Of a stretch of 64,000 nt of DNA, positions 22,324 through 38,979 are shown one piece after another; the first letter of the stretch is position 1, and the number at the start of each line of letters is the position of its first letter. This DNA comes from Megasphaera stantonii (GTDB lineage: Bacteria; Bacillota; Negativicutes; Veillonellales; Megasphaeraceae). The stretch is from the NCBI RefSeq assembly GCF_003367905.1, contig NZ_CP029462.1, positions 1,736,001-1,800,000 on the forward strand, given 5' to 3'. A program made the position numbers and the translations under genes. The notes below the pieces were generated by a model that saw only the letters and a program-made list of their open reading frames with translations, made no database searches and was not told the DNA's origin.

Positions 22324-22412
22324 GGAAAGGTGTCCGAGTGGTTTAAGGAGCTAGTCTTGAAAACTAGTGATGCGGCAACGCACCGTGGGTTCGAATCCCA
22401 CCCTTTCCGCCA
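22324..22412 (+). tRNA. tRNA-Ser (anticodon UGA)
   Basis: An 89-nt tRNA with acceptor GGAAAGG/CCTTTCC, discriminator G and encoded CCA. The anticodon stem is CTAGT/ACTAG with loop CTTGAAA (anticodon TGA at 22358-22360). There is a long variable arm (GATGCGGCAACGCACC) as expected for tRNA-Ser, and the T loop is TTCGAAT. It reads UCA and probably UCG. Confidence 0.97.
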
Positions 22413-32294: not shown

Positions 32295-32373
32295 ATATTG
32301 GACATCCTGACTCAGGCATTTGCAGTCCTTGAAATATGATAAAAAACATCTTATTTATAGAAGAGAGGTACTC

Positions 32374-35300
32374 ATGAATACACGAAAGCTTCAACGGACT
32401 ATTTTTTTAGGATTGGCGATGAGTATGTGGGGACATGCCGGCGCAGCGGCAGAGACCATTCAGCTTAAGGAATCCATGAACAATGCATATATTGCGGCCC
32501 ATCATACGCATCGATATGATGGAGAAGCCGTGAGCATTGATCCTACAGATAAAACAAAGCCAGCGATTGAGCTGAAATATGAAAAGGAAGTGGAAATCCA
32601 CGCTGATTCGTCAATTCGTCTTGATGGTCATACCGGTATCAAGACGGATCATTCGGATATCCTGCTGCAAGCCGGTAGCAATACAGATATTACAGCTGTA
32701 AGTGAGGATAGAGACGATGCTTATGGAATGTATAACGCTGTTGGCCATATAGATGTCATGGGAACCAACAACTCCATTACTGCAAAAAGTACTGGTAATT
32801 CCCGAGGAATCGGTATTTCCTCAGGGGGAATCGGTGATGCTGATAACTGGGAGGCAGAGATTTCTTTGCAGGCTCAAGGTGAAAACCGCATTGCAGCCGA
32901 TACCATTGGCATTGAATTCGGCATGGGCAGTACCATTACGTTATCAGGCAGCCATAATATTGTACAGGCTGGCCAGATAGGCTTGTATTCCTGGTGGGGC
33001 GGATGGCGCGGTGATGAATCGGTTCTCGTTGTCAATGGAGAAAATAGTGACATTATGGCTGGCAATGACGGCGGCGACGCTTTTGGCGTACAGTTTGAAC
33101 GGGCGCATCTCGTCCTTGACGGGACATCTCCGAGGCTGGTGTTGTCAGCGGCGAGCACGACGGGCAGTGCGACGGGAATATACCTGCTGGATTCGACGAT
33201 GACGTCCCGCCTTTCGGATGTAGCCATTGCTGCGTCGACAGACACGGCTGCCGACGCAGCCGGCATACGGACAGACAAGGGAAGCCGTGATAAGGCCGTG
33301 GCTGTTACAGCCAAAGGTATGACGATTCTCAGCCGTGCTGGCGTGCAGGGGAGGGCTATGGGAATCGAATCGACTGCCGGTGTGGCTGCTGTGCAGGCTG
33401 ATAAGCTGTATATTCAGACGATGACTTCTGGTGAGGAATCTCTGGGCATAGGGCTGGAAGCGACGACAGGAAACATAGCCGTACAGGCCGGAACTGTACA
33501 GATACAAAATGAATCCTCCTATGCCGGCCGCACGATAGGGATTCACGCGGAAAAGACGAATGATTCATCGGGGACGGTGACGGTACAAGCGCAGACGATT
33601 GCCGTGCAGACTGCTGACGGCAGCGGTACTGCGATACAGGCGGCAGCAGGCGGCGTTGTCCAGTTGGAGGCACAGGAAAGAGATGACTACGGCATCCGGC
33701 TGGAAGGGGCTGTTGCAGGACGCGGCAGCGCTTCGATTCGTCTGGAAAGCCAGGGCGGAACGGTTATTTCTTCTCGGGCAGCTGTGCAGGGAACGAATGG
33801 AGAACTATATCATAATGCCGTCTTTGCTGACGGGCAGGCTGCTGTGTCTATCGCGGCTGAACGGGGACGCAATGTGATACAAAGTATGGGCACGGCGCAG
33901 CAGCGTACTGTCTGGGCGGCAGACGGCGGCACTATTGCTGTTCGCGGGACGACCAGCATTCAACCAGGAGATGTACAGGCAGAAGCCATCGCTGCCGGTG
34001 ATGAGACAGCAGCCGCCGGAACGGTACGGAGCCGTGTCGATATGGCTTATGGTGACGGCAGCGCTGTTGCAGGACAGATAACGGCAATGGCCGGCGGCGA
34101 CGTGACCCTTGCTTCGCTGTCCGGTACGGAGAGCGTGCAGATAGACGGCAATGTGGCTGCAACGCGCGGCGGGACAGCAACGCTTCGCCTTGACGGACAC
34201 AGTACATGGACCGGCAGGGCGGATACCCATGGAGCAGCAGCCGATAAAGGAGTGATTCACCTTGTGCTGGGAGATAACGCGGTGTGGCACGTACAAGGAC
34301 AGAGCCGGCTGTCTTCTTTGCAAGGAAGAGGTACGGTAGATATGGCGTCCCACACGGGTAAGCATAATGAATCCTATGCCTTGCATGTGGACCGCCTGGA
34401 AGGAAACCATGCCTTTGTTATGAATTTGAACCGTAACGACCATGCGCACAGTGATATGTTGTATATTGATGACAGTACATCGGCCGGTACGCAGACCGTT
34501 CAGTTTGGAACGATTACCGGCATGGAAGACATGACCGATGGAAAAACGATTCGCTTTGCTACGGTCAATGCCAAACCGGAAACGCTGACCTTTGACAGCT
34601 CCGAGTACCCGACACTGCGCCATGTACGCATACGCGACAAAGGCATTATGGATGCAGCTTTCAGCATTGGCTATGAAGCCTTTTCTGCTGGCAGCAGCGA
34701 CAATATTGGCTATAACGGCGCAGAGGCTTCGGCAGATAAACCAGGCGAAGCCTACGTAGAATCCGTATATTCTGAAGGAACGAATTGGTTTGTCCGGCGA
34801 GAAATGCAGGACGATGTCCTGTCTGACGCTGGAAAGACGATTATCGCCATGTCCCGTATTAACTACTCCAACGCTATCTATATGGATAGACTGAACAAGC
34901 GCATGGGCGAAGCGCGGTACATCGACGGCGATGAAGGGCTCTGGGTGCGCATGCGTCATGACCGCATCGGCAAGTCCGACGCCTTCCGCAGCATGAATAC
35001 CATGATGGAACTGGGCTACGATACGCGGGTGAACGACCGGGAAGACGGAGAACACCGTCAGGGCGTGGCCATCGACTACATGCGCGGCACGGCGGACTAC
35101 AAGAACGTAGCCGGTGAAGGCGACGTACGGCGCGGCGGCATCTGGTTCTACGATACGTGGCTGGGCAATAAGGGCCATTACACGGACTACGTCTTGAAGT
35201 TCGGCAGATTGTCCAATGATTTCGAGCTGTACACGAGAACCCTCGGCGAAAAAGTCACCGGCGACTACAGCAACTTCGTTTACTCGGCCAGCGCCGAATA

Positions 35301-35724
35301 CGGCCGCAAGAAAGACCTGGGCAACAACTGGTACATCGAGCCTCAGGCTCAGATCCAGTACGCTCATGTCACTGACGCGGACTACACGACGAGCCAGGAT
35401 ACGCACGTCCAGCTCGACGCCATCGACAGCTTGATTGGCCGCGTCGGCTTCCGCCTCGGCAAGGATATGGGCGAAAACAATACCTTCTATGTGAAGGCCG
35501 ACGTGCTCCATGAATTCCTGGGTGATCAGGACATCAGCGCCTTCGACGACACAGGCCGCCTCGATACGACGTACGAAAACGAAGGCACATGGTATGACGT
35601 AGGCCTCGGCTTCTCCCATCAGTTCAGCAAAGGGACGTACATGTTCCTCGACGTGGAAAAGACCTTCGGCAATGACAATGAAGATACATACCAGTTCAAC
35701 GTCGGCATGAACTGGAAGGTTTAA
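32374..35724 (+). CDS. Autotransporter (type V secretion) with beta-helical passenger
   Basis: 1116 residues. A signal peptide (1 to about 25, ending GHAGAAAE) is followed by a long passenger of repeated beta-strand-rich, alanine/glycine/threonine-rich segments, then a C-terminal autotransporter beta-barrel (about 840-1116) that begins near DEGLWVRMRHDR and ends YQFNVGMNWKV. The barrel would insert in the outer membrane through BAM and display the passenger. Base composition changes: the passenger is visibly more AT-rich than the barrel. The ATG at 32374 follows AGAGAGG. Passenger function (adhesin or other) is not readable. Confidence 0.88.
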   Translation: MNTRKLQRTIFLGLAMSMWGHAGAAAETIQLKESMNNAYIAAHHTHRYDGEAVSIDPTDKTKPAIELKYEKEVEIHADSSIRLDGHTGIKTDHSDILLQAGSNTDITAVSEDRDDAYGMYNAVGHIDVMGTNNSITAKSTGNSRGIGISSGGIGDADNWEAEISLQAQGENRIAADTIGIEFGMGSTITLSGSHNIVQAGQIGLYSWWGGWRGDESVLVVNGENSDIMAGNDGGDAFGVQFERAHLVLDGTSPRLVLSAASTTGSATGIYLLDSTMTSRLSDVAIAASTDTAADAAGIRTDKGSRDKAVAVTAKGMTILSRAGVQGRAMGIESTAGVAAVQADKLYIQTMTSGEESLGIGLEATTGNIAVQAGTVQIQNESSYAGRTIGIHAEKTNDSSGTVTVQAQTIAVQTADGSGTAIQAAAGGVVQLEAQERDDYGIRLEGAVAGRGSASIRLESQGGTVISSRAAVQGTNGELYHNAVFADGQAAVSIAAERGRNVIQSMGTAQQRTVWAADGGTIAVRGTTSIQPGDVQAEAIAAGDETAAAGTVRSRVDMAYGDGSAVAGQITAMAGGDVTLASLSGTESVQIDGNVAATRGGTATLRLDGHSTWTGRADTHGAAADKGVIHLVLGDNAVWHVQGQSRLSSLQGRGTVDMASHTGKHNESYALHVDRLEGNHAFVMNLNRNDHAHSDMLYIDDSTSAGTQTVQFGTITGMEDMTDGKTIRFATVNAKPETLTFDSSEYPTLRHVRIRDKGIMDAAFSIGYEAFSAGSSDNIGYNGAEASADKPGEAYVESVYSEGTNWFVRREMQDDVLSDAGKTIIAMSRINYSNAIYMDRLNKRMGEARYIDGDEGLWVRMRHDRIGKSDAFRSMNTMMELGYDTRVNDREDGEHRQGVAIDYMRGTADYKNVAGEGDVRRGGIWFYDTWLGNKGHYTDYVLKFGRLSNDFELYTRTLGEKVTGDYSNFVYSASAEYGRKKDLGNNWYIEPQAQIQYAHVTDADYTTSQDTHVQLDAIDSLIGRVGFRLGKDMGENNTFYVKADVLHEFLGDQDISAFDDTGRLDTTYENEGTWYDVGLGFSHQFSKGTYMFLDVEKTFGNDNEDTYQFNVGMNWKV

Positions 35725-37251: not shown

Positions 37252-38559
37252 TTATTCGTTCGGCGTCAGGGCCTTGCCCGGTTTGACGAAGATCCAGGCG
37301 ACGATGGCTACGATGCCGAAGAGAGACGTGGCGATGAAGGCGTCGTTCCAGCCGTAGTTGGTGACGAAGTAGGCTGTGACGATGGGGGCGAGGACGCCGC
37401 CGATGTTGCCCCAGAGGTTCATCCAGCCCGATACGGAGCCGGTGTATTTGCCGCCCAGGGAGATAACCGTGGCCCAGCTGGCGCTCATGGAGAAGCCTAA
37501 TGCGCCGAGAGAGACGGTCATCCAGAAGATGTTCATTTCGGCACTCGGCGTATGTGCGGCGACGTACAGGCCGATAGAGGTGACGGCGACGCCGGCCATA
37601 GCCGTGAAGGTACGCATGGTGTACTGCCGTTCGCTGTTTTTGCCGTTGGCCATTTTATCGGAAATATAACCGGCGACGAAGACCATGGCCATGAGGGCGA
37701 TCCACGGGAAGGAAGCCCAGATGCCCATAGCTTTCAGGGACAGGTTGTGCACTTCCGTCAGGTACAGGGGCAGCCAGGCCAGGAAGACGTACATGATGTA
37801 GTCGACGACCATGAACTGAATGCCGACGGCCCAGAACTGGGACGAGCGGAGGAATTTGCTCCACGGGGCGACGCTTTTCTTTTCACTGGCAGCGGCGCGG
37901 CCTTCGGTGATATGAGCGTATTCGGCTTCGTTGACGTAGGGGCTGTGAGCCGGGTTATCGTGGGCGTATTTGTGCCATACCCAGGCCAGGACGATGCCGA
38001 CGAGGCCGAAGATGATGAATACGGCATGCCAGCCCATGGCGGCCATGAGGGCGACCGTAATGGCCGGGCCGACGACGGGGCCGAAGAAGGTGCCCATGAG
38101 GATGGACGAGCTGGCCTTGCCCTTTTCACGGGTATTGAACCAGCTGAAGGTCGCTGCTCCCAAGGCCGGGAAGACCGGGCCTTCGCCCATGCCGAAGAGC
38201 AGGCGGACGGCGGCGAAGCTGACCTTGCCTTTGGCAAAGGCTGTCAGAGCCGTGAAGATAGACCACCAGAGAATGGCCAGGGCGCCGGTGCGGCGCAGGC
38301 CCAGCTTTTCGGCGAGCATGCCGCCGGGAACCTGCATGAGTGCGTAGCCTGCGAAGAAACACGTCTGAATGAAGCCCATATCAATTTTTGTAAAACCGAA
38401 TTCTTGCATGATGACAGGTGTCGCTACGGATAAATTGACGCGGTCCATGTAAGCTACAAAGCTGATTAAAAAGATAAGAAAGGCGATTTTCCAGCGGAAA
38501 TTCGTCCTTGCCGGCGCAGCTGCCGCGGCGGTTTGTTGTCTTTCCATTGCATTTTCCAT
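37252..38559 (-). CDS. MFS transporter, anion:cation symporter (ACS) type, T-box controlled
   Basis: 435 residues with 12 membrane segments. FVAYMDRVNLSVATPVI in the first segment and PGGMLAEKLGLRRTGA in the first loop are typical of the ACS family (hexuronate, galactonate, glucarate and phthalate carriers). It has its own T-box leader, so expression responds to an uncharged tRNA. This makes an amino acid, or a biosynthetic precursor of one, more likely as substrate than a sugar acid. GGGGGAG precedes the ATG. Confidence 0.85.
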   Translation of the reverse strand: MENAMERQQTAAAAAPARTNFRWKIAFLIFLISFVAYMDRVNLSVATPVIMQEFGFTKIDMGFIQTCFFAGYALMQVPGGMLAEKLGLRRTGALAILWWSIFTALTAFAKGKVSFAAVRLLFGMGEGPVFPALGAATFSWFNTREKGKASSSILMGTFFGPVVGPAITVALMAAMGWHAVFIIFGLVGIVLAWVWHKYAHDNPAHSPYVNEAEYAHITEGRAAASEKKSVAPWSKFLRSSQFWAVGIQFMVVDYIMYVFLAWLPLYLTEVHNLSLKAMGIWASFPWIALMAMVFVAGYISDKMANGKNSERQYTMRTFTAMAGVAVTSIGLYVAAHTPSAEMNIFWMTVSLGALGFSMSASWATVISLGGKYTGSVSGWMNLWGNIGGVLAPIVTAYFVTNYGWNDAFIATSLFGIVAIVAWIFVKPGKALTPNE

Positions 38560-38604
38560 ACGATACTCCCCCTTGATAGATCATTTCCTCAAACTGCCAT
38601 GTAT

Positions 38605-38888
38605 ACGAAAAGCCCCTGCCGTCTCGACGATGGAGACGGCAGGGGCGAAGGCTCGCGGTACCACCCTGCTTTATCACTTAGGGCCCGAAGGCTGTCCTTA
38701 ACGCTGACATACGGCTGCGCCTCCCGTGCAGGACGCTCGGCGCGGCAGCTCGCAGGCGATGTCGAAGTAGGTCTGTTTCTGGTCCGGCTCTCACCGCTGC
38801 CGGATTCTCTGTAGGAAAGGGAAACCTGTTCTTTACCTGGTCATGGCCTGTATAGGCTCCGCATATATGCGGGGCGTTTTGAGGTGTT
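38605..38888 (-). promoter_or_regulatory. T-box leader upstream of the MFS gene
   Basis: On the minus strand the conserved T-box AGGGTGGTACCGCG (38667-38654) is followed by a perfect 14-bp terminator, GCCCCTGCCGTCTC with GAGACGGCAGGGGC (38646-38612), and TTTT. Upstream there is a stem I-like region with AGAGAA and GGTGAGAGCCGG. The specifier codon could not be fixed with confidence by hand folding, so the cognate amino acid is left open. Confidence 0.9.
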
Positions 38889-38894
38889 GAACTT

Positions 38895-38923
38895 ATTATC
38901 CATGGATACAGGTCGTTTGTCAA
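38895..38923 (-). promoter_or_regulatory. Promoter of the T-box transcript
   Basis: Minus strand TTGACA (38923-38918), 17-nt spacer, GATAAT (38900-38895). Confidence 0.85.
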
Positions 38924-38947: not shown

Positions 38948-38979
38948 GTTAAACGTTATAATATTTGAGTTAAACGTTA
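38948..38979. repeat. Tandem 11-bp direct repeat, 21 bp apart
   Basis: GTTAAACGTTA occurs at 38948-38958 and 38969-38979. The offset of 21 bp is two helical turns, and the pair sits just upstream of the -35 of the T-box promoter, as an operator would. No terminator for the macB-like gene is visible here. Confidence 0.6.

Follow-up and report, generated by a model that had tools for sequence, protein, structure and literature searches.

An isoleucine-type T-box leader precedes an ACS-type MFS carrier gene of Megasphaera stantonii whose product may take up hydrophobic 2-hydroxy or 2-oxo acids

In a 64,000-nucleotide stretch of Megasphaera stantonii DNA (hereafter the window) a lone gene for an ACS-type MFS carrier lies behind a T-box leader whose specifier codon reads AUC (Ile). 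T-box control of this MFS gene is well supported; as an RNA element, the T-box belongs to a known class and is ordinary within it (for general background see PMC3766115 and PMC12452182, in part). The tRNA response, the transport direction, the substrate and the metabolic route of the carrier system are what we infer in the following. The substrate is probably an acid from which the cell can make amino acids; it is unlikely to be a sugar acid, and the free amino acid may not be carried either. From sequence comparisons we regard it as quite possible, if still tentative, that the carrier takes up 2-hydroxy (or 2-oxo) acids of the Ile, Val and Phe type at times when the amino acid concerned is short. 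The first-pass annotation had claimed AGGGTGGTACCGCG, a 14-bp terminator, a promoter, a stem I-like region and a lone MFS gene on the minus strand, and all of these are present among the following features (window coordinates).

38948..38978, plus strand: two GTTAAACGTT repeats (38948-38957 and 38969-38978) upstream of the promoter, a possible DNA-binding site (exact-site count)
38895..38923, minus strand: sigma-70-type promoter TTGACA-17-GATAAT (11/12 consensus matches)
38638..38853, minus strand: T-box leader, RF00230 (covariance model)
38753..38839, minus strand: Stem I, with lower helix CAGG (38839-38836) to CCUG (38756-38753) and CAGAGAAUCCGGC...GGUGAGAGCCGGA upper arm (sequence, covariance match, ortholog alignment)
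38758..38760, minus strand: specifier codon AUC (Ile); next come G and the CCUG strand of the lower Stem I helix (Rfam alignment register)
38654..38667, minus strand: T-box sequence AGGGTGGTACCGCG, with variable base U at 38660, complementary to discriminator A73 (sequence; tRNA-Ile end ACCA)
38612..38646, minus strand: perfect 14-bp intrinsic terminator with TTTTC tail, its 5' arm overlapping the antiterminator (terminator search, folding)
38566..38573, minus strand: Shine-Dalgarno sequence AGGGGGAG (read directly)
37252..38559, minus strand: MFS transporter of 435 aa, TIGR00893-like (ACS type), lone gene (ORF, profile matches)

The leader matches RF00230 over the full length of the covariance model (1-219 of 219, at 38853..38638 on the minus strand) with 71.2 bits and an E-value of 1.7e-15 in 551 bases, or 1.9e-15 over the whole genome, which bears out the earlier claim of a T-box ahead of a lone ACS-type MFS gene. 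The score lies below the Rfam gathering threshold of this family, 93 bits, for which reason a scan of the 64-kb window at that threshold listed no T-box, only a tRNA; the leader is reported with an E-value threshold. A genome-wide covariance search of the source genome (G000, one contig, 2.65 Mb) led to the identification of 18 T-boxes, 12 of which are below the gathering score when the present leader is counted. Since these 12 include the T-boxes of valS, pheS, ileS, cysS, glyQ, trpS and trpE, the score of the leader is normal for this organism. The promoter scan found one site against a mean of 0.4 in shuffles, and two terminator-like sites were found on both strands of the 551 bases against a shuffled mean of 0.7. 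Compensatory changes in the ortholog alignment support the pairing of the terminator, and the antiterminator, GCAGGG...CCCCUGC, shares sequence with the 5' arm of the 14-bp terminator, so that the two are mutually exclusive. Single-sequence folding of the leader barely beats shuffled sequences (z -1.66, with 11 out of 200 shuffles as good) and was consequently not counted in favour of the T-box. In the RNAalifold consensus of the orthologs Stem I is interspersed with long-range pairs, and this consensus was likewise left out for the specifier helix.

With the Ile-specific transcriptional T-boxes of ileS and ilvC the leader shares Stem I with its specifier, the AGAGA...GGUGA arm, the T-box sequence and an antiterminator overlapping an intrinsic terminator. 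It differs from them in controlling an ACS-type MFS carrier and in lacking the usual AGUA/GAA letters of the specifier loop, which here read GGUAAAGAA / GAC. This consensus is common but not universal, and it is also absent from the valS, thrS and serC T-boxes of the genome. As to the GTTAAACGTT repeats, similar repeats were seen by eye before several orthologs. The pattern is not enriched genome-wide, with six exact sites (two of them here) against seven for the reversed control pattern; elsewhere the exact pattern occurs close to a POR_N gene (733493) and to the SSS/BASS paralogs (1465143).

To read the specifier we used the register of the Rfam alignments, in which one base separates the codon from the CC of the lower helix of Stem I. 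The register was calibrated on 13 T-boxes ahead of enzyme genes identified by NCBIfam, some of these genes being cut at the locus edge, and it yielded the expected amino acid in 13/13 cases.

AUC: ilvC, ileS
CUC: leuA
AUG: O-acetylhomoserine sulfhydrylase
ACC: thrS
UGG: trpS, trpE
GUC: valS
UUC: pheS
UGC: cysS, cysE
UCC: serC
GGC: glyQ

This agreement indicates that the specifier of the leader is AUC, for Ile. The tRNA-Ile(GAU) of the genome ends in ACCA, complementary to the UGGU of the leader, and the U of this UGGU fits A73 of tRNA-Ile, tRNA-Val and tRNA-Phe. The corresponding bases of the other 17 T-boxes match their tRNAs with the one exception of trpS (U against G73), tRNA ends having been read at 30 tRNA loci of 57 tRNA matches. 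Other triplets were tried and rejected. Shifting the codon one base later gives Ser in all nine T-box-bearing ortholog leaders (UCG, or UCA in L166), and the preceding triplet would mean Asp (GAC/GAU) in eight of them. Both readings were discarded because the register is fixed by the 13 enzyme-linked T-boxes and because the T-box base U would face G73 in tRNA-Asp, in tRNA-Ser(GGA) and in the tRNA-Ser at window position 22324, whose anticodon is UGA by eye. An Ala (GCC) reading is out of register.

Orthologs, defined as matches at E <= 1e-100, were found in 10 out of 61 genomes of the order, and nine of the ten (source genome included) have kept the T-box. Read by eye, their specifiers are AUC in four, UUC (Phe) in four and GUC (Val) in one, so that five of the nine T-box-bearing orthologs carry UUC or GUC where the leader in the window carries AUC.

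AUC leaders: G000, G013 (L091), G014 (L086), G019 (L166, another family)
UUC leaders: G001 (L085), G002 (L087), G006 (L088), G015 (L089)
GUC leader: G012 (L084)

The remaining ortholog, in G003 (L090), lacks the T-box; by eye, the leader of this T-box-less ortholog (L027 / L090) still has what resembles a promoter and a terminator hairpin. The eight leaders that were aligned, without L166, all read GA(C/U)-NUC-GC, the codon varying in its first base only and the preceding base being C or U, and the variable base of the T-box is U in all nine. Beyond the source genome T-boxes were scanned for with a regular expression on the T-box motif. Among 64 related loci in the named collection the motif occurs close upstream in four, all from Megasphaera, whose leaders look identical to L084, L085, L088 and L091; one looser match at -847 in L047 was left uncounted. 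None of 20 class homologs (L175-L194), several of which have fewer than 700 bases upstream, has the motif. In a tree of 15 carrier rows the inner support is weak, with 4 of 11 branches starred. The specifier labels require six changes on this tree, the least possible being three, and shuffled labels do as well in 16 of 200 trials; this suggests that the specifier may have switched repeatedly among the orthologs. Because the ortholog specifiers name Ile, Val and Phe, the carrier would be one for hydrophobic amino acids or for their carbon skeletons. The orthologs with Ile, Val and Phe specifiers also form a natural series in which to study how a T-box changes its amino-acid identity.

In the mechanism that we propose, uncharged tRNA-Ile(GAU) would pair through its anticodon with the AUC in Stem I when Ile is short, and its free ACCA end would pair with the UGGU in the antiterminator. 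The tRNA-bound antiterminator would then keep the 14-bp terminator from forming, so that the MFS gene would be transcribed, whereas charged tRNA would let the terminator form. As a cation symporter, the carrier would bring in hydrophobic 2-hydroxy acids (or their 2-oxo counterparts) that correspond to Ile, Val and Phe, candidate substrates being 2-hydroxy-3-methylvalerate, 2-hydroxyisovalerate and phenyllactate. Racemases of the LarAH10 type and dehydrogenases of the GlcD type would convert these to 2-oxo acids, from which a transaminase would make the missing amino acid. Branched-chain hydroxy acids occur in yogurt and mouse liver, according to part of PMC8924213.

The carrier protein matches Pfam MFS_1 (PF07690) with 207.4 bits, above the gathering cut-off of 33.4. 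Its closest named relatives, from Megasphaera, are 81-85% identical. The genes that flank it within the window look unrelated by eye. The window also has, by eye, an autotransporter-like large ORF of 1134 aa (32320-35724, plus strand). The best NCBIfam model is the D-galactonate transporter TIGR00893 and the best PDB sequence match is DgoT (E 1.1e-44), and both would suit a carrier for sugar acids of the hexonate or gluconate type, whose T-box would have been captured by chance or would serve a general starvation response. We consider this improbable. The carrier shares the MFS subfamily of DgoT and TIGR00893 but scores 233.3 bits with the latter, far below its cut-off of 395, in line with the earlier remark that a sugar-acid annotation would mislead, and a T-box captured by chance would hardly be maintained in nine of ten orthologs with specifiers confined to Ile, Val and Phe. 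Aligned with DgoT, the carrier keeps a DR pair, R and E in the next motif, a W and an N, and has T in place of a Q; the shared residues would suit an anionic substrate but prove nothing.

The genes beside homologs of the carrier bear on the substrate. Class-wide there are at least 62 carrier matches, with up to four candidates scored per genome, and 40 loci were examined with wider flanks: 8 of the 30 for which a locus was already at hand and all 32 of the others. A LarAH10-like 2-hydroxyacid racemase gene is present at 22 of these 40 loci, in 20 cases within 600 bp and in 16 immediately downstream, in the same orientation and no more than 300 bp away; the five of the 22 racemases that were scored against NCBIfam all pass the LarAH10 cut-off. 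All 22 loci, which come from five families (f9, f11, f18, f29 and f31), fall among the 35 at which the MFS protein is less than 60.5% identical to ours, and eight of them also have a gene resembling the aminotransferase beside L193. At the loci of the closer homologs (63-70% identity) a LarAH10-like gene was found in 0/5. LUD-like genes occur at 2/40 of the class-wide loci, and genes resembling DUF2848, carbon-nitrogen hydrolase or Ldh_2 at 0/40. In the named collection, where neighbour genes are listed at 13/64 related loci, two homologs from outside Negativicutes (Desulfosporosinus and Holophagaceae, 48-50% identity) adjoin LUD-domain, LutB/LdhH-like genes that resemble lactate-oxidation genes and score under those NCBIfam cut-offs. 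A homolog of 33% identity, also from outside Negativicutes, lies upstream of a malate/L-lactate dehydrogenase-family gene, and beside four from Bacillales (41-43% identity) lie DUF2848 and carbon-nitrogen hydrolase genes, two by Pfam and two by eye. The source genome has three larA-like genes, none of them beside the carrier; the two that were scored are both above the LarAH10 cut-off, and one LarAH10 gene is followed by a GlcD-like gene (below the cut-off of its model). In the motif scan 0/25 larA-like loci of the family have a T-box before larA, one motif in L243 lying after the gene.

The Val and Phe specifiers of the orthologs, together with the 2-hydroxyacid enzymes beside the homologs, are the reason for reading the substrate as a hydrophobic 2-hydroxy or 2-oxo acid. 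LarAH10 itself has been studied in M. elsdenii; it is an enzyme and absent from the carrier locus, although genes of its family adjoin many distant carrier homologs and two lie in the source genome. It racemizes phenyllactate (PMC7583248, in part) and, in the sections available of PMC11770544, acts on 16 hydroxy acids with mostly hydrophobic side chains, 2-hydroxyisovalerate included. The same sections give its epimerization of D-gluconate/D-mannonate as the fastest listed reaction by kcat/KM, with D-mannonate at least about 30-fold above the hydrophobic acids shown, and their authors note that D-gluconate may be native and that linear side chains are preferred over branched ones (PMC11770544). 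The data on D-mannonate, D-gluconate and linear side chains count against a hydroxy-acid substrate and would suit a sugar-acid carrier. Other points against a hydroxy-acid substrate are the few LUD-like genes, the different neighbours in Bacillales, the lack of a T-box before larA and a second T-box-bearing MFS gene (L001, below) whose case is not conserved. With no LarAH10 gene beside the carrier or the closer homologs examined, the T-box-bearing orthologs and the homologs with a LarAH10 link form separate sets, between which the substrate may have shifted.

Five of the 18 T-boxes of the genome precede transporters.

AUC (Ile): the carrier described here
CUC (Leu): L001, a second ACS-like MFS
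UUC (Phe): L004, an SSS symporter
GUC (Val): L007, a BASS carrier
UGG (Trp): L012, an ECF-type ATPase

BASS/PanS-like carriers belong to a different family from the MFS carrier and in Megasphaera are likewise under Val, Ile or Leu T-boxes. All 14 BASS carriers at least 72% identical to L007, from the same genus, have a T-box (by eye GUC in eight, AUC in five and CUC in one), as against 0/3 of the more distant BASS loci examined; L007 scores 217.7 with the PanS model against a cut-off of 400. In G001 a Leu-T-box copy has ilvN and, by eye, an ilvD-like gene in its vicinity, and an Ile-T-box copy in G004 adjoins a GlcD-like gene. SSS symporters of at least 69% identity have a UUC T-box at 12/12 loci, compared with 0/8 of the SSS paralogs examined. 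For L001 the T-box is found in G000 only, six relatives at 42-50% identity having none. Loose motif matches in coding-like sequence (L106, L115, L119, L131 and L135) were not counted. We put forward, tentatively, that a whole T-box regulon of Megasphaera and its close kin may have been redirected from the uptake of amino acids to that of their carbon skeletons by way of separate organic-anion carrier families. Two ACS-type MFS carriers, BASS carriers and perhaps the SSS symporter would answer shortage of Ile, Val, Leu or Phe, the 2-hydroxy or 2-oxo acids would be fed into amination, and the specifiers of orthologs would differ by single bases.

The main rival to a hydroxy- or oxo-acid substrate is the amino acid itself, the carrier importing branched-chain and aromatic amino acids and the specifier switching according to which amino acid in its range is limiting; we hold this to be rather unlikely. 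T-box-controlled transporters, an MFS among them, and changes of specifier have precedent in Wels et al. 2008, whose Firmicutes set in the sections available comprises MFS, APC, LIVCS, NSS, NhaC, DAACS and ABC transporters (PMC2494555). Like the present carrier, these have a T-box before the transporter gene and specifiers that vary between related transporters, but the substrates inferred there are amino acids, and their Table 1 gives MFS for Lys only and no BASS family (PMC2494555). The assigned substrates speak for amino-acid import, as does the argument made there that multi-specific carriers of the LIVCS family are each controlled by one amino acid, which differs between carriers (PMC2494555). 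An amino-acid substrate is also possible because the ACS relatives of the carrier, among those with solved structures, include the vesicular glutamate transporters and the sialic-acid carrier sialin. Against it, carriers of the ACS kind mostly transport organic or inorganic anions, many of the distant homologs neighbour 2-hydroxyacid enzymes, and the parallel T-box-bearing BASS carriers are likewise of an organic-anion family. The LarAH10-like genes at 22/40 distant loci and the T-boxes on 14/14 BASS carriers thus favour a carbon skeleton as substrate; the specifiers name hydrophobic amino acids only, and the sole BrnQ-family gene of G000 has no T-box, both further points for a skeleton. Where the first-pass annotation proposed uptake of an amino acid or a precursor, the context now favours a precursor-type 2-hydroxy or 2-oxo acid, and the amino acid itself has become the less favoured half of that proposal. 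A search of titles and abstracts, with subscription papers mostly outside its scope, found no report that couples a T-box to carriers of keto or hydroxy acids or to bile-acid symporters.

Another kind of precursor is conceivable. Reductive carboxylation of branched-chain and aryl carboxylates to amino acids is known in rumen anaerobes, and the carrier could import 2-methylbutyrate, isobutyrate or phenylacetate for conversion to Ile, Val and Phe by this route, an explanation we think very improbable. The specifier set fits these precursors and six POR_N matches over the cut-off (2-oxoacid:ferredoxin oxidoreductase-type genes) are present in the genome, but the neighbour genes of the homologs point to 2-hydroxy acids and one literature search on the route in M. 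elsdenii found no paper that matched it in full. Preferring 2-hydroxy or 2-oxo acids, we note that the specifier, taken with the genes beside distant homologs, yields a testable substrate for an MFS carrier which would otherwise be anonymous and be mis-annotated as a sugar-acid transporter. If this reading is true, T-boxes mark carriers of hydrophobic 2-hydroxy and 2-oxo acids, and Megasphaera would be linked to the salvage of branched-chain hydroxy acids.

Several further observations were made on the other T-boxes and carriers. The Leu T-boxes of leuA and of the L001 MFS gene (L001, L003) are 87.7% identical (214/244), and the Leu T-box was apparently copied recently onto the L001 carrier gene, judging from this likeness. 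G007 (L261, L099, L105) has BASS paralogs in one region, one with a Val and one with an Ile T-box, near ilvD, and in G000 a PanS-like BASS paralog (under the PanS cut-off) lies directly before panC (L264 5189-7021). The Trp T-box of L012 stands ahead of the ECF-type ATPase gene and of a gene for a probable transmembrane (T) component, the second assigned by eye. Finally, the Phe T-box ahead of the SSS symporter gene combines a single Stem I with two T-box/antiterminator sequences in tandem behind it (in the source genome L004, G000:C1 near 943427-943643), an arrangement found in 12/12 orthologs (L116-L127).
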